Assembly (NCBI RefSeq): GCF_014200725.1
Contig: NZ_JACHCL010000005.1
Span: 1-64,000 of the forward strand
Length of the DNA stretch: 64,000 nt
From: Janthinobacterium silvisoli
Lineage (GTDB): Bacteria; Pseudomonadota; Gammaproteobacteria; Burkholderiales; Burkholderiaceae_D
Direction of reading: 5' to 3'
The position numbers and the translations under genes are program-made. Under the pieces are notes generated by a model. It saw only the letters and a list, made by a program, of their open reading frames with translations. It had not been told where the DNA came from and ran no database searches. Of this stretch, positions 55,857 to 64,000 are shown in pieces. Each line of letters begins with the position of its first letter. Within the stretch, counting starts at the first letter, position 1.

Positions 55857-56978
55857 TTAGAACGAGTGACGCAGACCAACGTTGAAGGCTTTGTCGCCCG
55901 AACCAGCGTCGCTGTTGCCACCAACGGTGTAGACTGCACCGTTTTTGTTTTTGATTTTAGCGTACGAAGCGTAGGTGCTGGTGCGCTTCGACAGAGCGTA
56001 GGAGTAACCCAGTGCCCATTGATCAGCATCAGCGTTAGCGATACCTTTGTCGTTGGCTTTGATGTACGAAGCCATCACGGTGCCCGACTCGCCCACTGGT
56101 ACGGTGGTACCGATCAGGAAGGTGGTGCTGTCAACGCTAGGAGCAGCAGCTTGGTAAGCGTAGGCGTTCAGGCTGCTCGAGCCGGTGTTCGCGCCACCGT
56201 TAGCAGCGAAGTTGGTGTTGCTCAGGCCCGAGTTGTAAACATTGCTGTTCACGCCTTTGTTCACGCCGTATGCCAGGTAAGCCTTGGCAACAACGAAATC
56301 GTAGTTAGCAGCTGCCAACAGGTTACGACCACTGCCGATGGTGCTAGCAGCCGAAGTTTGGTTGTTGACCAGGTTGTACACCAGGCGTGCGTTCAGAGGA
56401 CCGTTCGAGTAGCCAGCCGATGCGCCGATTTGACGACCGGATTTGTTCGAATCAGCTTGTTCGCCGAAGGTGTAAGCCACGTCAGCGTCAAAGCCGTTGA
56501 ACTTAGGCGTGGTGTAGTACACGGTGTTGCTGGTGCGGGTGTTCGATGGGAACAAGTTTTTAGCGGAACCAGCGTAGCCAACTGCGAACGGGTCAGCAAT
56601 TTTCGACAGCGTGTTGTAGTACGGGGTGTATTGACGACCCAGGGTCAGCGTACCAGCATCTTTGCTGCTCAGGCCAACGTAGGCTTGACGATTGAACAGG
56701 GAACCTGCTTTGTCTTGTGCGCCGGTGTCAACGCTGAAACCCGATTCCAACAGGAACAGAGCCGACAGGCCGTTACCCAGATCTTCATTGCCTTTGAAAC
56801 CGATACGCGAAGCCGAAGCCGTACCGCTGCTGATTTTGTTAACCGTGCCTTGAGCACCGCCACGCTCGCTGACGAAAGCTGCGTCAACGGTACCGTAGAT
56901 GGAAACGCTCGATTGAGCGTGAGCGATGCCGGTGCTAGCTGCTGCCAGAACTGCCAGGGAGATCAGAGTTTTTTTCAT
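55857..56978 (-). CDS. General outer-membrane porin, Burkholderia/Neisseria type
   Basis: A 373-residue trimeric porin for passive uptake of small solutes. It has a signal peptide (MKKTLISLAVLAAASTGIAHA, cleaved near residue 21), then SSVSIYGTVDAAFVSERGG, the usual first strand of Gram-negative porin family 4 proteins, and NRQAYVGLSSKDAGTLTLGRQYTPYYN around residue 100. It ends with NVGLRHSF, the C-terminal phenylalanine recognised by the BAM complex. The codons differ from most neighbours by being less GC-rich, as is usual for a highly expressed protein. A 5' leader of about 230 bases precedes it. Confidence 0.93.
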   Translation of the reverse strand: MKKTLISLAVLAAASTGIAHAQSSVSIYGTVDAAFVSERGGAQGTVNKISSGTASASRIGFKGNEDLGNGLSALFLLESGFSVDTGAQDKAGSLFNRQAYVGLSSKDAGTLTLGRQYTPYYNTLSKIADPFAVGYAGSAKNLFPSNTRTSNTVYYTTPKFNGFDADVAYTFGEQADSNKSGRQIGASAGYSNGPLNARLVYNLVNNQTSAASTIGSGRNLLAAANYDFVVAKAYLAYGVNKGVNSNVYNSGLSNTNFAANGGANTGSSSLNAYAYQAAAPSVDSTTFLIGTTVPVGESGTVMASYIKANDKGIANADADQWALGYSYALSKRTSTYASYAKIKNKNGAVYTVGGNSDAGSGDKAFNVGLRHSF

Positions 56979-57931: not shown

Positions 57932-58390
57932 CTAACGCTGGCTTGCGCGCCTGAGCAAGCGCATCAATCCACCGAGTACCGGCAGTTTCTGATACAGCTC
58001 TTCCGCCACATCCCAATAGTCCCGATGCACCGCCACGCGGCCCTGCGCATCAAAACGCACATGCGTTGCCCCACGCACGCATTGTTCACCCGCCACAAAA
58101 CGCCGCATATGAAAGCGGAATTCCCAGGTCAGGAATGCCTGGCCCTGCTGCTGCATGCATTCGAGCACCACGAAGCGCGGCCTGTCGACTTGCACGAACA
58201 TGTGTTCAAAAATGGCCAGGATAGCCGCATGGCCCTGCACTTCATTGAATGGATCCTTGAAACTGGCGTCTGGGGCATACACGGCACCCAACTGGGCCAG
58301 GTTTTCCAGGCTGAGGTTTTCATAAAACGCCACCAGGCGCGCCAGGGCGTGCTCGCCATCGAGCGGTGCCGCCGCTACTGTACTCATCAT
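57932..58390 (-). CDS. SnoaL/NTF2-like protein of the lipid-modification cluster
   Basis: A 152-residue protein with the cone-shaped NTF2-like fold pattern: LARLVAFYENLSLENLAQLGAVYAPDASFKDPFNEVQG at about residues 15-52, a central FLTWEFRFHMRRF and a terminal HRDYWDVAEELYQKLP. Homologues accompany the SDR, MFS_2, Cfa and DUF1365 genes seen upstream. Catalytic activity is unknown; related folds act as small-molecule isomerases or dehydratases. Two adjacent ATG codons open the gene, 12 bases after the SDR stop. It is the last gene of the operon. Confidence 0.8.
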   Translation of the reverse strand: MMSTVAAAPLDGEHALARLVAFYENLSLENLAQLGAVYAPDASFKDPFNEVQGHAAILAIFEHMFVQVDRPRFVVLECMQQQGQAFLTWEFRFHMRRFVAGEQCVRGATHVRFDAQGRVAVHRDYWDVAEELYQKLPVLGGLMRLLRRASQR

Positions 58391-58402
58391 TGTTGCGTCA
58401 CC

Positions 58403-59170
58403 TTATAAACCCGTCACCTTGTTGATCAGCCAAAAATATGCGCGATACGGCAATAGCCTCGCCAGCCGCATGCTATTCGTAAAACGTTTGGGAAAGTGAA
58501 TATGAAACTGGCCCCGTTCGATGCCCCGCAGCATGGCGGCAGCCGCATCGTGCGCCGTCATCAGGGCCGGCATCTTGAAATCATTGCCAGCGGTCAAAGG
58601 CGTATCGACGAAGCCAGGATTGATCTGATACACATCGATGCCGCGCGGATGCAAGTCCAGGTACAGCGATTCCGTCAGGTTGATCAGCGCCGCCTTGCTG
58701 GCGCCATACACCAGCGCCTTGGGCAAGCCGCCATATCCAGCGACTGAAGCAACGATGCCGATACCGCCCGCCCCCTGCTTCAGCAGCAGCGGCAAGACCG
58801 GCGCCAGACAAGCAAAGACGCCGCCCACATTCAAGTCCATCAAACTCTGCGCTTGCGCCAGGTCAAAATCATCGGCGCGCATGGCGGTATAGCCACCGGC
58901 CACCACCAGCACCAGGTCGATGCGCGACCATTGCTGCTGCAGCGCCCCGCACACGGCCTGCACTTGCGCAGGCTGCGTGATATCGAGCGGCATGGCCAGC
59001 GCCAGCGGCTGCCCTGCGCATAGCTGTTCCAGCCTGGCCTGATGGCGCGCCGACAGGGCCACGCTGGCGCCCTGCTCGAGCAGCAAGCTGGCGCAGGCGG
59101 CGCCGATGCCGGTCGATGCACCGATGATCCACACCCGCTTGCCTACCCAGCTATCGATCTTGCGGTTCAT
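58403..59170 (-). CDS. Short-chain dehydrogenase/reductase
   Basis: A 255-residue SDR. The cofactor site is IIGASTGIGAACASLLL at residues 15-31, with the ASxxGxxG arrangement, and the active site is YGASKAALINL (Tyr and Lys of YxxxK near residue 157). The tail (MRLARLLPYRAYFWLINKVTGL) is hydrophobic and may associate with the membrane. Substrate is unknown; in this cluster a fatty-acyl or other lipid substrate is plausible. It overlaps the MFS gene by 20 bases. Confidence 0.87.
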   Translation of the reverse strand: MNRKIDSWVGKRVWIIGASTGIGAACASLLLEQGASVALSARHQARLEQLCAGQPLALAMPLDITQPAQVQAVCGALQQQWSRIDLVLVVAGGYTAMRADDFDLAQAQSLMDLNVGGVFACLAPVLPLLLKQGAGGIGIVASVAGYGGLPKALVYGASKAALINLTESLYLDLHPRGIDVYQINPGFVDTPLTAGNDFKMPALMTAHDAAAAMLRGIERGQFHIHFPKRFTNSMRLARLLPYRAYFWLINKVTGL

Positions 59171-60431
59171 GGGGCCTTATCTCCTTATATATATGTTGTA
59201 ACGGCGCCCGCCACAACAGCAGCGCAGCGGCAACCTTCAAAATGCAGGGCAGCAAGGCATAGGCGGCGGACAAGGCGGGCAGCCCGCCGCCCTGCCCCGG
59301 CACATAGCCGAGCCAGGCCAGCAGGGGCAAGGCGATGCCGGCCGCCAGTGCCAGGCTCATCTGCACGCCCCAGTTCCACCAGCCAAAATACGCCGCTTCA
59401 TGCCGGCCCGCGTGACCGGCCGCACCGATCAGGCCAGCCAGCAAGGCAGGAGGCAAGGCCAGGTCGGCGCCCAGCGCCAGACCAGACAACAGGCAGATGG
59501 TGCCAAAACCCCACATAGCTCCTGCATCCAGGCCATATGCCCAGACAAATACCAGTGCAGCGGCCAGCATGCTGGCCGACCAGGCGCGCGCCTCGCCATA
59601 GCGGCGGGCCAGCGCTACCCACAACGGCATCGAGGCGGCGGCCGCACAGAAATACACGATCAGAAACAGGCCGGCATAGGGACCCAGGCGCAGATAATCG
59701 CCGGCAAAGAACAGGAACAGGGTGGCAGGGATGGCGGCTGCCACACCGTTGATGAGCAGGATGGCAAACAGATGCCGGAAAGCACGCTGGCGAAATGGCA
59801 CGCTCCAAGAGGTGGCCAAGATGTTGGGGGGCGCCACCGGCCGCGGCGGACGGGGTCCATAGCGCAGCAATACCGTAGCGCAAGCGAGCAGGCACACGGC
59901 AAACACCAGCGACAAGCCTTCATAGCCGAGTACGGAAGTCAGCCCTGCCGCCAGGATCACGCCCACCAGGCCACAGCCCTCGCGCACCGCCGTCACTCTG
60001 GAACGCTGGTCCAGCGCCTGGCTCAGCGCCGCCCCCCAGCTCTGGTGCGCGATGCTGGCCAGGCCGTAAGCGGCATACACCAGCAGCAAGGAGGCCAGGA
60101 ACCAGGCCAGGGTGGCGCCTTCAGGCATGACAGGTGGATGAAACAGGGCGCCAAAACCCAGCAAGAGCAAAGGCAAGGCCAGCGCGATGCAAAGGGCATA
60201 GCTGCGCGCGCCACGGGCGATCCAGGCGCCCAGGGCAGGATCGATGAAGGCGGCAGCGATGCGGGCGGCCAGCAACACGGCGCCGATCTGCGCCAGGCCC
60301 AGGCTGCTGCGCTGCGTATAAAACGGCGCAACATATATATAGATAGGCAAGGCCAGCATGGCCAGCGGCAGGCCAAACAGGCCATACGAGAACACGGCAG
60401 GCAGCGCCAGCGGACTGCCTGATGTGCTCAT
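59151..60431 (-). CDS. MFS_2 (GPH-type) transporter of the lipid-modification cluster
   Basis: A 426-residue membrane protein with 11-12 helices, resembling the glycoside-pentoside-hexuronide cation symporter group (MFS_2): GLFGLPLAMLALPIYIYVAPFYTQ at the start, then LGAWIARGARSYALCIALALPLLLLGF. The ATG at 60431 is used because an upstream reading from 60554 would run 115 bases into the neighbouring gene. Homologues of this set include lipid-related carriers, so a lipid or lysolipid substrate is possible but not shown. Confidence 0.83.
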   Translation of the reverse strand: MSTSGSPLALPAVFSYGLFGLPLAMLALPIYIYVAPFYTQRSSLGLAQIGAVLLAARIAAAFIDPALGAWIARGARSYALCIALALPLLLLGFGALFHPPVMPEGATLAWFLASLLLVYAAYGLASIAHQSWGAALSQALDQRSRVTAVREGCGLVGVILAAGLTSVLGYEGLSLVFAVCLLACATVLLRYGPRPPRPVAPPNILATSWSVPFRQRAFRHLFAILLINGVAAAIPATLFLFFAGDYLRLGPYAGLFLIVYFCAAAASMPLWVALARRYGEARAWSASMLAAALVFVWAYGLDAGAMWGFGTICLLSGLALGADLALPPALLAGLIGAAGHAGRHEAAYFGWWNWGVQMSLALAAGIALPLLAWLGYVPGQGGGLPALSAAYALLPCILKVAAALLLWRAPLQHIYKEIRPHEPQDR

Positions 60432-60438
60432 GACATAC

Positions 60439-61026
60439 TCATGGCAAGGCAGATGCCTGCGGCAGCGCATTCTGCAGCAAGGCGCTACGCAGCTTGGGCG
60501 CCGTGGTGTCGGGCGAGAGCCAGATGGCAAAGAAGGCGCGCGCAAAATCGCCATCGGTCACATCGGCCATCACCTTGCCGTCCAGATAGAAGCGTACGCC
60601 AGGCGCCACGCCGGCACGGTAGGCGCCGGCGATGCGCTGGCCTTGTTTCACGTCCGGGAAGATGCGCTGCATGGTACGCAGCCATTCCAGGCGCTGCGCT
60701 TCCGTGCCGGCCTGGATTTTCTGCATCTGTTCATAACTGGCTTCGGCGATCTTGCTGCCATCGAGCCCGCGCGCATAACGCAATTCCAGCACGAACGGTG
60801 CGGTGGCCGACGCAAGGCCCTGATAGCCTTGCGGTCCTACCCACAGCTGCGCCTGGTAAATACGCATGCCAAACCAGGTATAGTCGCCTTCGCCCGACAG
60901 ACGGGCTTCGGGCACGTCGGCACTGATAAAAGCGGCAGGCGATGAGGGGCTTGCTGGCGGCGCGGCATGGGCCGCCACCGACAGGAATGAGAATAGAAAA
61001 ACAGACAGCAAACGGCGCATGGTCAT
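60439..61026 (-). CDS. Chalcone isomerase-like exported protein
   Basis: A 195-residue protein with a signal peptide (LLSVFLFSFLSVAAHAAP, about residues 5-22) and a chalcone isomerase-like domain: LSGEGDYTWFGMRIYQAQLWV, LRYARGLDGSKIAEASYEQM and the closing DGDFARAFFAIWLSPDTTAP. Bacterial members lack known flavonoid substrates, and fatty-acid binding is known for some relatives of the fold. It starts inside the last bases of the Cfa-like gene (four-base overlap). Confidence 0.82.
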   Translation of the reverse strand: MTMRRLLSVFLFSFLSVAAHAAPPASPSSPAAFISADVPEARLSGEGDYTWFGMRIYQAQLWVGPQGYQGLASATAPFVLELRYARGLDGSKIAEASYEQMQKIQAGTEAQRLEWLRTMQRIFPDVKQGQRIAGAYRAGVAPGVRFYLDGKVMADVTDGDFARAFFAIWLSPDTTAPKLRSALLQNALPQASALP

Positions 61027-62252
61027 CCTTTCAGCAGGGTAAATTGCATGACATCCGTATTATGAGCCTGAAAGGCTGCCTCGCAATAGGCCAGATAAAA
61101 TTCCCAGGTCAGCAGGAAACGGCCATCGAAGCCCTGTTTTTCCAGCGCCACGCGCTGGGCCAGGAAACTGGCGCGCCACTGGCGCAGGGTTTCCGCGTAA
61201 TCGAGACCGAAGCTAAAGGCATCGACCACGCGCAAGCCCTGCGCTTCCGCGCCGCGGCGAAACTCGGCAGGCGAAGGCAGCATGCCGCCCGGGAAAATGT
61301 ATTGCTGGATAAAATCAGTGCTCTTGCTATAGCGCTCAAACAGTTCATCGGCGATGACGATGGTCTGGATGCAGGCGCGTCCGCCCGGTTTCAGATTACG
61401 CGCGACACACTCAAAATAGCCGGGCCAATAACTTTGCCCCACGGCTTCAAACATTTCTATCGAAGCGATGGCGTCATACTGGCCGGCGCTGTCGCGGTAA
61501 TCGCACAGCTGCAAATCAGCCTGCTCAGCCAGGCCGGCTGCCTGCAAGCGCTGGCGCGCATAAGCCAGTTGTTCGGTAGACAAGGTCAGGCCCGTGACAT
61601 GGGCGCCCTGCTCGCGGGCCGCCGTTTCTGCAAAGCCACCCCAGCCGCAGCCGATTTCCAGCACCTTCGCGCCGGGATGCAGCTGCAACTGGCCGGCAAT
61701 GCGGCGGTATTTGGCCAGCTGCGCCTGCTCCAGGCTATCTCCTTCGCTGAACAGCGCGCTGGAATACGTCATCGATGGGTCTAGCCACAGCTGATAAAAG
61801 GCATTACCGATATCGTAATGGGCGTGGATATTTTTCTTGCTGCCCGCACGCGAATTGCGATGCAGCAGATGGCGCAGACGATACAACAGGTTGCCCCACC
61901 AGCTGCCATAGATCAGCGATTCGATCTGGCTGCGGTTGCGTATCATCAATTCAATCAAGCCGGGCAGATTGTCGGTACGCCAGTCGCCGGCGATAAAGGT
62001 TTCGGCAAACCCAATATCTCCCGAACGCAAGACGGCTGAACACATATTCCAGTTATGCAAGTCCAGGTGGATGGGTGCGCTGCCGTCGCCATACAGCAGC
62101 ACGGCGCCATCTGGGGTGCGCAGGCGCAAGGCGCCAAATTTCAATTTATCGAGCAGCGACAAAATCATGCCCGCGGGGGCGGACAAGTCCAGGTGCTCGT
62201 ACGATGCGCTACTGCGCGCATGCAAGCCGTTGGGCAGGGATTCCGTATTCAT
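61023..62252 (-). CDS. Cyclopropane fatty-acyl-phospholipid synthase family methyltransferase
   Basis: A 409-residue Cfa-family enzyme that transfers a methyl or methylene group from SAM to unsaturated acyl chains of phospholipids. The N-terminal domain (about 1-140) binds lipid. The catalytic part starts at NIHAHYDIGNAFYQLWLDPSMTYS (about 141-164), has the SAM motif VLEIGCGWGGFAE at about 197-209, and IEMFEAVGQSYWPGYF with the cyclopropane-synthase glutamate. In this neighbourhood it resembles the non-housekeeping Cfa-like enzymes linked to methylated or furan fatty acids rather than the classical cfa. It overlaps the chalcone isomerase-like gene. Confidence 0.88.
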   Translation of the reverse strand: MNTESLPNGLHARSSASYEHLDLSAPAGMILSLLDKLKFGALRLRTPDGAVLLYGDGSAPIHLDLHNWNMCSAVLRSGDIGFAETFIAGDWRTDNLPGLIELMIRNRSQIESLIYGSWWGNLLYRLRHLLHRNSRAGSKKNIHAHYDIGNAFYQLWLDPSMTYSSALFSEGDSLEQAQLAKYRRIAGQLQLHPGAKVLEIGCGWGGFAETAAREQGAHVTGLTLSTEQLAYARQRLQAAGLAEQADLQLCDYRDSAGQYDAIASIEMFEAVGQSYWPGYFECVARNLKPGGRACIQTIVIADELFERYSKSTDFIQQYIFPGGMLPSPAEFRRGAEAQGLRVVDAFSFGLDYAETLRQWRASFLAQRVALEKQGFDGRFLLTWEFYLAYCEAAFQAHNTDVMQFTLLKG

Positions 62253-62262
62253 CGTACACCTT

Positions 62263-63066
62263 TCATCGTGACAGCTTTTCTTGGGGAGGATGGGGTTTGC
62301 TAAAAAACGGCACGCGTCGTAGCCACAGCCGCAGCGCCTGCCAATGGATGCGGGCCATCACGCCGAACGTCATCAGCGGATAACGCAACAGGGCGCGGCC
62401 CAGCGCGCGGTCGCGCAAGGGCACGGCAATACCGGACAAACTCGTTTGCAGCAAGGGACCGCTGGTATCGTCGTAATCGACGCAGGCCAGGTGGCGTTCG
62501 CCCTGCCCTGCGTCATCCTTGCTGCGCAGAAAGCGGAAGCGGTAACCGCCCTCGACCTTGCAAAAGGGCGAAACGTGAAAGATCTTGTTGGCGCGCAACT
62601 CGCTGCCATAAGCAATCGCTGCGCCATGATCGAGCAGGTACAGATGACGTTCGCCAAAGGTATTGCGCACATCGCACAGCACGGCGCGCAAGGCGCCATC
62701 GGCACGGTGGCAAAACCAGAAACTGACGGGATTGAATACATAACCGAATACGCGCGGCATGGTTTGCAGCCAGATTTCGCCATCGGCATCGCTCACGCCT
62801 TGCTCATGCAGCAAGCCATCTATCCAGTCCAGCAAGGGCGTTACACCATCGCCATGGTCGCTATCGCGAAACGACAGCACATTGGCGCCGTTGCGCGAAA
62901 TAAGCCGCGCGCTGAAATCCTGCCCCCCCATGCTGCGCAAGGGCAGGCGCAAGTAATAGATGCCATAACTAAAGAAATGCCGGCGCGGCCGCAAGCGCGT
63001 ATGGCGTACTTGCCCCAGACACAGCTGCGGCTGCGCCATGGCGGGCAGCGACGAATCACGCGGCAT
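62263..63066 (-). CDS. DUF1365 family protein
   Basis: A 267-residue DUF1365 protein of unknown function. Family-like sequences are GQVRHTRLRPRRHFFSYGIYYLRLPL at the N-terminus, VFGYVFNPVSFWFCHRADG near residue 110, NTFGERHLYLL and HVSPFCKVEGGYRFRF. Two TM-like segments are absent, so it may be peripheral. The gene is nearly always found beside the FAD amine oxidase-like and Cfa-like genes. It overlaps the upstream gene by 11 bases and is 10 bases from the next. Confidence 0.88.
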   Translation of the reverse strand: MPRDSSLPAMAQPQLCLGQVRHTRLRPRRHFFSYGIYYLRLPLRSMGGQDFSARLISRNGANVLSFRDSDHGDGVTPLLDWIDGLLHEQGVSDADGEIWLQTMPRVFGYVFNPVSFWFCHRADGALRAVLCDVRNTFGERHLYLLDHGAAIAYGSELRANKIFHVSPFCKVEGGYRFRFLRSKDDAGQGERHLACVDYDDTSGPLLQTSLSGIAVPLRDRALGRALLRYPLMTFGVMARIHWQALRLWLRRVPFFSKPHPPQEKLSR

Positions 63067-64000
63067 GGTCCAGCTCCGACGCCGCCAGGCTCGCCAGGGT
63101 GGCAGCCACGGCCAGGCCCGATTTCAAACCATCTTCATGGAAGCCGTAACCGGTCCAGGCGCCCGCGAACCAGGTGTTTTGCATGCCCTGGAAGTTGGCC
63201 AGCCGCATTTGCGCCGCAATCGCCGCGCCATCGAACACCGGATGCGCATAGGAAAATTCAGCGATGACCTTGGCTGGATCGGGTTCGTCGAGCGGGTTCA
63301 AGGACACCATGACGGGCGTACTGAAGGGCAAGGGCTGCAACTGGTTCAGCAAATAATGCACGCACACTTGCGGCGCGTCGCCTTCTTCCACCGCCGGGCG
63401 GCCCTGGTAATTCCAGGCCGACCAGGCGCGGCGGCGTTCAGGCAAGCACGAGGCGTCCGTATGCAGTACAGCCCGGTTCGGCTGGTAGCGTACGGCTTGC
63501 AGCACCTTGCGCTCGTCGTCGCGCGCATCCGACAACAAGGCCAGCGCCTGGTCGCTATGGCAAGCCAGCACTACATGATCGACATGCTCCACACCGTGCG
63601 CCGTCAACAGTTCAACCATGCGCGCACCGCCCTGTGGCTGGCGGCGCACGCCCAGCACGGGGCAAGCCAGGCGCTGCTGGGGGATACCGGCCAGCAATTT
63701 CTTCACGTACACGCGCGAGCCGCCGCGCACGGTGCGCCACTGGGGCCGGTCATTGACTTGCAGCAAACCGTGGTTGTGGCAGAAACGGATGAAGGTGGCC
63801 AGTGGAAAGGCCAGCATCTGGCGCGCCGGGCAAGACCAGATACAGGCAGCCATCGGCAGCAGATACCAGTGGCGAAACTCAGCACCATAGCCATGCAGGT
63901 CGAGAAAATCACCGAGACTCATGGCCGGCGCCGGCAACTGGGCGGTGGCGATGGCGCTGGCCTGGCGGTTGAAACGTAAAATGTCGCGCAGCATGCGCAG
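63056..64000 (-). CDS. FAD-dependent amine oxidase-like protein (partial, N-terminus beyond window)
   Basis: Only the C-terminal part, at least 312 residues, lies in the window. Homologues are about 430 residues, so roughly 115-120 with the N-terminal FAD-binding GxGxxG motif are missing to the right. Visible parts include MSLGDFLDLHGYGAEFRHWYL, VRGGSRVYVKKLL, HVDHVVLACHSDQALALL and NTWFAGAWTGYGFHEDGLKSG, which closes the FAD site. An in-frame ATG at 63994 is unlikely to be the true start. It is the first visible gene of the operon and overlaps DUF1365 by 11 bases. Confidence 0.85.
   Translation of the reverse strand: MRMLRDILRFNRQASAIATAQLPAPAMSLGDFLDLHGYGAEFRHWYLLPMAACIWSCPARQMLAFPLATFIRFCHNHGLLQVNDRPQWRTVRGGSRVYVKKLLAGIPQQRLACPVLGVRRQPQGGARMVELLTAHGVEHVDHVVLACHSDQALALLSDARDDERKVLQAVRYQPNRAVLHTDASCLPERRRAWSAWNYQGRPAVEEGDAPQVCVHYLLNQLQPLPFSTPVMVSLNPLDEPDPAKVIAEFSYAHPVFDGAAIAAQMRLANFQGMQNTWFAGAWTGYGFHEDGLKSGLAVAATLASLAASELDHAA

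Follow-up and report, generated by a model that had tools for sequence, protein, structure and literature searches.

Seven consecutive genes at the end of a 64,000-nucleotide stretch of the Janthinobacterium silvisoli genome (assembly GCF_014200725.1, contig NZ_JACHCL010000005.1, positions 1 to 64,000; hereafter the window) probably constitute a complete furan-fatty-acid (ufa) operon, which appears to be read from a promoter of the extracytoplasmic function (ECF) type and to have lost direct light control together with the photoreceptor LitR. Judging from the sequence, the probability of this reading may be put at roughly three in four. The enzyme families UfaD, UfaO and UfaM are all present and consecutive in the order known from Rhodopseudomonas palustris. 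Pfam searches identified DUF1365 (E-value 2.6e-81), CMAS (4.3e-84), Chalcone_3 (2.7e-12), MFS_2 (9.1e-44), adh_short (1.4e-42) and SnoaL_2 (1.7e-16) domains in six of the products. The seventh, a flavin adenine dinucleotide (FAD) protein of 437 amino acids when complete, matches Amino_oxidase over the whole protein (1e-18), while its 312-residue piece inside the window gave no Pfam match.

In Rhodobacter sphaeroides and R. palustris, cis-vaccenate chains are first methylated by UfaM and then desaturated by UfaD, and the O2-dependent formation of the furan requires the DUF1365 protein UfaO; the remaining three genes of the R. sphaeroides operon (RSP1089, RSP1088 and RSP1087) are dispensable for the furan acid (PMC7380195). 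By analogy with these homologues, the UfaM-like protein of J. silvisoli would add a methyl group at the cis double bond of an acyl chain in a phospholipid, the product being a methylated trans alkene and not a cyclopropane, UfaD would introduce a second, conjugated double bond, and UfaO would close the furan ring with O2. The original prediction of a closely packed membrane-lipid modification gene set like that of the photo-oxidative stress cluster, with a link to furan fatty acids, is borne out by the gene families and the work cited, and all seven genes proved intact; its statement that the chemistry of DUF1365 is unassigned is outdated. Furan fatty acids are membrane lipids thought to scavenge reactive oxygen. 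The pathway itself is already known and proven in two alphaproteobacteria, and the present analysis would extend it to a common betaproteobacterial operon.

The genes occur together more often than expected by chance, as their co-occurrence across 80 loci fetched with UfaO, the best 80 of 593 (the named loci), indicates: UfaD accompanies it in 79, the methylase in 78, the short-chain dehydrogenase/reductase (SDR) in 68, the chalcone-isomerase-like protein in 58, SnoaL in 56 and the MFS transporter in 51. These figures come from targeted searches, automatic family clustering having been swamped by shadow frames and unusable, and are lower bounds since several contigs are short. DUF1365 is present in 42 of 61 related genomes and in 30 of the 37 from the same genus (this genome counted), and in 28 of those 30 the operon lies at the ftsY locus, a placement read directly in 17 and taken from the LitR coordinates in the remainder. 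A second DUF1365 gene was observed elsewhere in G005, G008, G015, G020 and G036 (related genomes, loci and contigs are designated G, L and C); in G008 it belongs to a second, more diverged ufa operon. A glutathione peroxidase gene was detected anywhere in 43 of the 80 named loci; in 24 it shares the strand of ufaD and its partial match ends no more than 600 bp before that gene (five of these loci with LitR). In addition, a gene on the opposite strand upstream of the operon in 31 named loci (e.g. L116:4596-5468) encodes a ferritin-like protein with weak Pfam matches to desaturase, AurF and rubrerythrin.

The putative ECF-type promoter, TGAATCC-N16-CGTATAAG, precedes ufaD at 64475-64505, just past the end of the window. 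The block is found in all 20 aligned Janthinobacterium intergenic regions, with N16 in 18 of them and N17 in G016 and G028, its last bases varying slightly. The consensus of ChrR-type sigma factors in Pseudomonas syringae and Shewanella is TGATCC-N16-CGTA (PMC5507510, PMC4336711); the ufaD promoter has the same spacing and one extra base in the -35 element, so that ATCC-N16-CGTA is common to both. With spacings of 15-17 the motif occurs seven times in this genome versus once in the control, and with N16 it occurs 25 times in five congeners versus once in the backwards control. Among the six N16 matches of this genome, those before ufaD and a fasciclin-domain gene keep downstream genes common to four other genomes; a 225-residue open reading frame (ORF) downstream of another match recurs in G012 and a short ORF downstream of a further one in G012 and G030. 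Each of ufaD and the fasciclin gene follows the motif in five of six genomes (this one, G003, G010, G012 and G030; not G016), and a DUF4331 gene carries it exactly in G003, G010 and G030 and with one mismatch here. The fasciclin gene of this genome (L182:8864-9472, contig C2 at ~653.9 kb) lies beside RND-efflux-like genes, named by eye. A weight matrix trained on the known sites gives each of them a score of 23 or more, versus a best score of 13.2 in the 64-kb window, which excludes the ufaD site. In 72 named loci, matches with spacings of 15-17 number 0.176 per kb in the upstream sense direction, 0.010 in the operon body and 0.009 in antisense, a 17-19-fold higher density upstream, and 17 of the 19 upstream matches have a spacing of 16.

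A second conserved block (64423-64451, likewise beyond the window) comprises a TTGACA site within a TTGAC-N5-TCAA palindrome and is present in 20 of 20 loci. The argument for the TTGACA block is its conservation, since a sigma-70 scan of the region, which revealed no excess of sites over shuffles, did not pick it up. Transcription probably starts from the ECF-type promoter and may start in addition from a sigma-70-like site that carries the palindrome. The palindrome resembles an FNR/CRP-type box and could be a LitR operator or the site of an oxygen regulator. Both blocks are also kept in the four genomes without LitR beside the operon.

As to the sigma factor, 38 sigma-like matches were found in the genome, 30 of which were scanned over 1.5 kb on each side. 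On contig C2 at ~203.4-209.4 kb (L248), genes for an ECF sigma factor, an NrsF anti-sigma factor (Pfam 3.9e-61), DUF4331, DUF1223, an MsrP-like molybdopterin oxidoreductase and cytochrome b561 lie together, the DUF4331 gene with the ufaD-type promoter. That this sigma-F-like pair controls the ufa operon deserves consideration, yet seems unlikely. No other sigma gene was found near a copy of the motif, and MsrP-like and cytochrome b genes lie alongside this one; moreover, among the 30 NrsF loci fetched (six without DUF4331), all 24 with DUF4331 beside ECF-NrsF carry the motif at a spacing of 16, 19 of them exactly. This genome has the pair, and of the 28 genomes with the operon 24 do, but NrsF was not found in G003, G008, G015 and G028, which nevertheless keep the ufaD motif (N16 in three, N17 in G028); the DUF4331 gene of G003 likewise retains the motif in a stretch without ECF or MsrP-like genes, and the ECF gene itself has no motif directly upstream. 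Furthermore, sigma-F of Caulobacter reads GTAACC-N16-CGAA (PMC3511200) whereas the ufaD block is TGAATCC-N16-CGTA, even if a sigma-F homologue could read another sequence. The NrsF-linked ECF protein matches the solved sigma-E of R. sphaeroides weakly (E-value 6.1e-4).

The original prediction favoured a canonical sigma-E/ChrR (ECF11) regulon, for which the promoter type speaks in part, being one base from the TGATCC-N16-CGTA consensus; the glutathione peroxidase before ufaD also recalls the Shewanella regulon. The partner pair did not appear: the genes beyond position 64000, where rpoE and chrR had been looked for, are ftsY, ftsE, ftsX and rpoH. A ChrR profile gave nothing above the cut-off in the 61 genomes (this one and 60 related), while the Caulobacter positive control was detected. 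The best score, 31.4 bits against a cut-off of 124.5, belongs to a single-cupin protein for which no sigma partner was recognised by eye. An rpoE-chrR pair elsewhere in the genome as the regulator of the operon is therefore rather improbable. Sub-threshold ChrR matches occur in all four operon genomes without adjacent LitR (this one, G008, G012 and G016) versus three of the 24 with it (G021, G024 and G031). These cupins were considered as a replacement regulator and dropped, since the loci of the former four encode single-cupin proteins with no sigma/ChrR pair, as judged by eye; three lie beside a FAD-oxidoreductase-like gene, and that of G016 follows FecR- and TonB-receptor-like genes. The nearest sigma-region-4 matches on the contig are at 23.6 and 109.4 kb; a flat absence of any stress sigma, which the original prediction had named as telling against it, is countered by the ECF-like promoter. 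The photolyase expected nearby was not found in or beside the operon by a search for PF00875, whose sole gene in this genome lies on contig C1 (the DPRP type, PF04244, was not searched for here).

The chemistry proposed for the methylase draws on its active site. In Escherichia coli Cfa the catalytic bicarbonate is held by Glu239, His266 and Tyr317 (PMC11387697). Aligned with five solved CMAS-family chains, the UfaM-like protein has Ser, Glu-Ala and Gln in place of Cys, Glu-His and His, unlike the other two full Cfa paralogues encoded in this genome, which retain Cys, Glu-His and His (a fourth CMAS match, of 39.8 bits, lies on contig C3); the comparison covers cyclopropane synthases and no UfaM of known activity. 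Glu-Ala and Gln occur in 21 of 21 copies of a first set (this one and L034-L053; first ligand Ser in 18, Cys in three) and in all 72 methylases with a readable frame from the 78 named loci bearing the gene (first ligand Ser in 67, Ala in four, Gly in one; Tyr gapped in one). Because Gln replaces the bicarbonate-holding His, a methylated alkene may be expected instead of a cyclopropane; loss of the base-holding group fits such a product, with Gln296 as the residue presumed responsible. Glu-Ala plus Gln versus Glu-His plus His is a simple residue test that may separate UfaM-type methylases from cyclopropane synthases. Alternatively, the operon might stop at methyl-branched or methylated unsaturated chains, or yield a different oxidised lipid, and make no furans, as pairs of FAD and Cfa-like proteins produce 10-methyl acids in other bacteria (PMC7791843) and four accessory genes are without a known role. 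This is of low probability, given that UfaO is present and well conserved and that a conserved bicarbonate site was the ground for choosing the 10-methyl enzymes (PMC7791843), a site the His of which the methylases here do not have.

A LitR/CarH gene with MerR and B12-binding domains lies divergently beside ufaD in 24 of the 28 genomes of the genus whose operon is at ftsY (this genome counted). Its product is ~313-326 residues long in the loci listed. The Pfam domains were determined on the copy of G010, which has 3whp (E-value 4.5e-28) and CarH 5c8d (4.8e-28) as its best PDB matches and carries W-x9-EH and ExHxxG, which we take to be the B12-binding motifs of CarH. Such a regulator should add light control of the operon in most relatives; it was missed by the original prediction because it lies outside this genome. 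At an E-value of 0.001 no LitR homologue was detected in this genome, G012 or G016, and the only one of G008 is distant and lies near the second ufa operon of that genome. The lipoprotein-like gene DUF3833, which separates MFS_2 from SDR in the congeners read, was not found genome-wide in this genome, G012 or G032. The nearest relative, G012, shares both absences. A tree of FtsY, FtsE, FtsX and RpoH pairs this genome with G012 and sets G008 and G016 apart, and the outgroup Duganella aceris has LitR; together these point, as judged by eye, to three LitR losses (this genome with G012, G008, and G016).

This lineage thus seems to have lost LitR together with DUF3833 while keeping the rest. The ratios of nonsynonymous to synonymous substitution rates (dN/dS) against G012 are 0.047-0.124 for the seven genes, 0.082 for ftsY and 0.025 for rpoH, which indicates purifying selection on the operon. 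That the operon is a decaying remnant, as might be suspected from the missing LitR and DUF3833 and from the eroded or missing ftsY-linked operons of G009, G013 and G023, is hardly credible with seven open genes, such dN/dS values and intact promoter blocks. In G009 and G013 (L078, L079) the locus is eroded to a chalcone-like or SDR gene, LitR stays and another ufa operon exists elsewhere; in G023 the ftsY-linked operon is gone. Since LitR is lost and the rest kept, expression here would be expected to follow oxidative stress and not light directly. We infer from the genomes compared that furan-lipid synthesis in this strain is uncoupled from direct light sensing and driven by some ECF sigma factor.

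Several observations weigh against a complete, ECF-driven furan operon. The sigma factor reading the promoter was not found, only the DUF4331 site lying near one of the 30 scanned sigma-like genes. For two of the six N16 matches of this genome, which fall within other reading frames (L178, L181), chance may be the origin. The N16 motif with at most one mismatch occurs within 1.5 kb upstream of ufaD in only 17 of 72 named loci, in four of these more than 500 bp away; outside Janthinobacterium the figure is 14 of 69. In the methylases of L034, L036 and L043 the first ligand is still Cys, and in 5 of the 72 named ones it is Ala or Gly, which leaves only the Glu-Ala/Gln part of the signature constant. 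Finally, orthology to the proven enzymes is argued from domains, gene order and the signature, not from a tree, and the product is a predicted one.

For the genus as a whole, we propose tentatively, at less than even odds, that furan-lipid synthesis receives two inputs, LitR and an ECF sigma factor, the latter acting at a ChrR-type promoter without ChrR and serving the fasciclin and DUF4331 genes as well, and that the photoreceptor input was apparently discarded three times while the sigma input was kept. In that case a new anti-sigma factor that senses lipid or singlet-oxygen stress would still await discovery. Strains with and without the photoreceptor gene, having the same operon and promoter, amount to a natural experiment on whether furan lipids answer light itself or light damage. 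A literature search returned nothing on the control of this operon in Burkholderiales, although works pairing Janthinobacterium with only one such subject could escape it; a LitR study in Burkholderia multivorans reportedly exists, and light control of a Cfa-like gene in the order may already be in print.

The AlphaFold2 (AF2) model of UfaO is a beta-barrel with a mean predicted local distance difference test (pLDDT) of 92.4, for which Foldseek returned nothing below an E-value of 0.001 among solved structures. Nitrobindin (Z 7.4, root-mean-square deviation 4.2 over 137 residues) and the spirocyclase OlmO (Z 7.3, 5.2 over 138), the best hits of a second aligner, score too low to support a relationship, these values being within the range of common arrangements, and a sequence search of PDB gave no meaningful match for UfaO or MFS_2. 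His22, His141, His164 and His241 are invariant in 60 UfaO sequences. In a wider set of 13 with three diverged copies only His22 and His164 remain so, His241 being Tyr in those three; a metal or haem site is conceivable. The model of the chalcone-fold protein (mean pLDDT 90.2) matches chalcone isomerases and the plant proteins AtFAP1 (E-value 3.4e-8) and AtFAP3 (2.7e-7), a likeness that makes a lipid-binding role plausible. Together with MFS_2, SDR and SnoaL, this protein is regarded as accessory, probably handling or moving the modified or oxidised lipid.

Table 1. Genes of the predicted ufa operon, in order of transcription
Feature	Position	Strand	Remarks
ufaD-like FAD amine-oxidase-family gene	63056..64000; 5' end at 64369, outside the window	-	Would desaturate the methylated acyl chain; equated with RSP1091/RPA2571 solely through its domain and the gene order (PMC7380195)
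ufaO-like DUF1365 gene	62263..63066	-	Predicted O2-dependent furan-forming enzyme; AF2 model a beta-barrel
ufaM-like CMAS-family methylase	61023..62252	-	Ser165, Glu269-Ala270, Gln296, Tyr352 (own numbering) versus Cys, Glu-His, His, Tyr in cyclopropane synthases
Chalcone-isomerase-fold protein (Chalcone_3)	60439..61026	-	Likely signal peptide (judged by eye); AF2 model resembles chalcone isomerases and plant fatty-acid-binding FAPs
MFS_2 (GPH-family) transporter	59151..60431	-	ATG 60431 preferred to the listed 60554; start uncertain
SDR	58403..59170	-	DUF3833 gene between MFS_2 and SDR in most congeners, not in this genome
SnoaL_2-like protein	57932..58390	-	Final gene of the operon

All seven genes are co-directional and contain no internal stops. 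Overlaps of 11 bp (UfaD/UfaO), 4 bp (UfaM/chalcone) and 20 bp (MFS/SDR) alternate with gaps of 10 bp (UfaO/UfaM) and 12 bp (SDR/SnoaL). The MFS_2 frame as listed runs 116 bp into the chalcone gene, while ATG 60431 yields 426 residues and a gap of 7 bp; the latter may be the true start, as matches in most congeners begin only at residue 36-51, although G012 and some distant matches start earlier and weigh against it. Accordingly, three or four of the six junctions overlap, depending on this start. The genes ftsY, ftsE, ftsX and rpoH (named by eye) are divergent upstream neighbours, and a Gram-negative porin gene on the same strand (window positions 55857-56978) lies ~950 bp downstream, in the same place as in the Janthinobacterium loci read. 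We take RSP1089 and RSP1088 of R. sphaeroides to be MFS_2 and DUF3833 proteins, respectively.

Among known systems, the blue-light response of Vibrio cholerae combines a MerR-type regulator and a ChrR-type sigma factor in one response to light and reactive oxygen that includes a Cfa-like gene (PMC5241685); both regulators are present there, whereas here only the promoter type is recognisable. The ChrR-type ECF regulons of P. syringae (PSPTO_1121-1114) and Shewanella (SO_3386-3374) place phrB-cfa-type operons behind ATCC-N16-CGTA, and the latter includes a periplasmic glutathione peroxidase (PMC5507510, PMC4336711); 24 named loci here have a glutathione peroxidase gene shortly before ufaD. They differ in having rpoE-chrR and a photolyase gene in the operon, neither of which this genome shows. 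In the LitR-linked phrB-ufaM cluster of Pseudomonas, a LitR-family regulator lies near a FAD oxidoreductase, SDR and ufaM, as in the relatives of this genome, but that regulator is a class II LitR with a LOV partner and photolyase (PMC9758184), while the LitR of Janthinobacterium aligns with CarH and is missing from this genome. The R. sphaeroides genes RSP1091-1087 with RSP2144 (ufaM), under sigma-E/ChrR, share UfaD, UfaO and the SDR RSP1087, and the operon also encodes the 402-residue RSP1089 and the 186-residue RSP1088 (PMC7380195), a homologue of which is annotated as a lipoprotein in P. syringae (PMC5507510). Here, in contrast, ufaM stands inside the operon, no ChrR was found and the place of DUF3833 in the relatives is empty. 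In RPA2571-2568 of R. palustris (Lemke et al. 2020, PMC7380195), homologues of UfaD, UfaO and UfaM are consecutive in the same order as here; the operon described above differs in belonging to a betaproteobacterium and in continuing with four accessory genes, those of the chalcone-fold protein, MFS_2, SDR and SnoaL.

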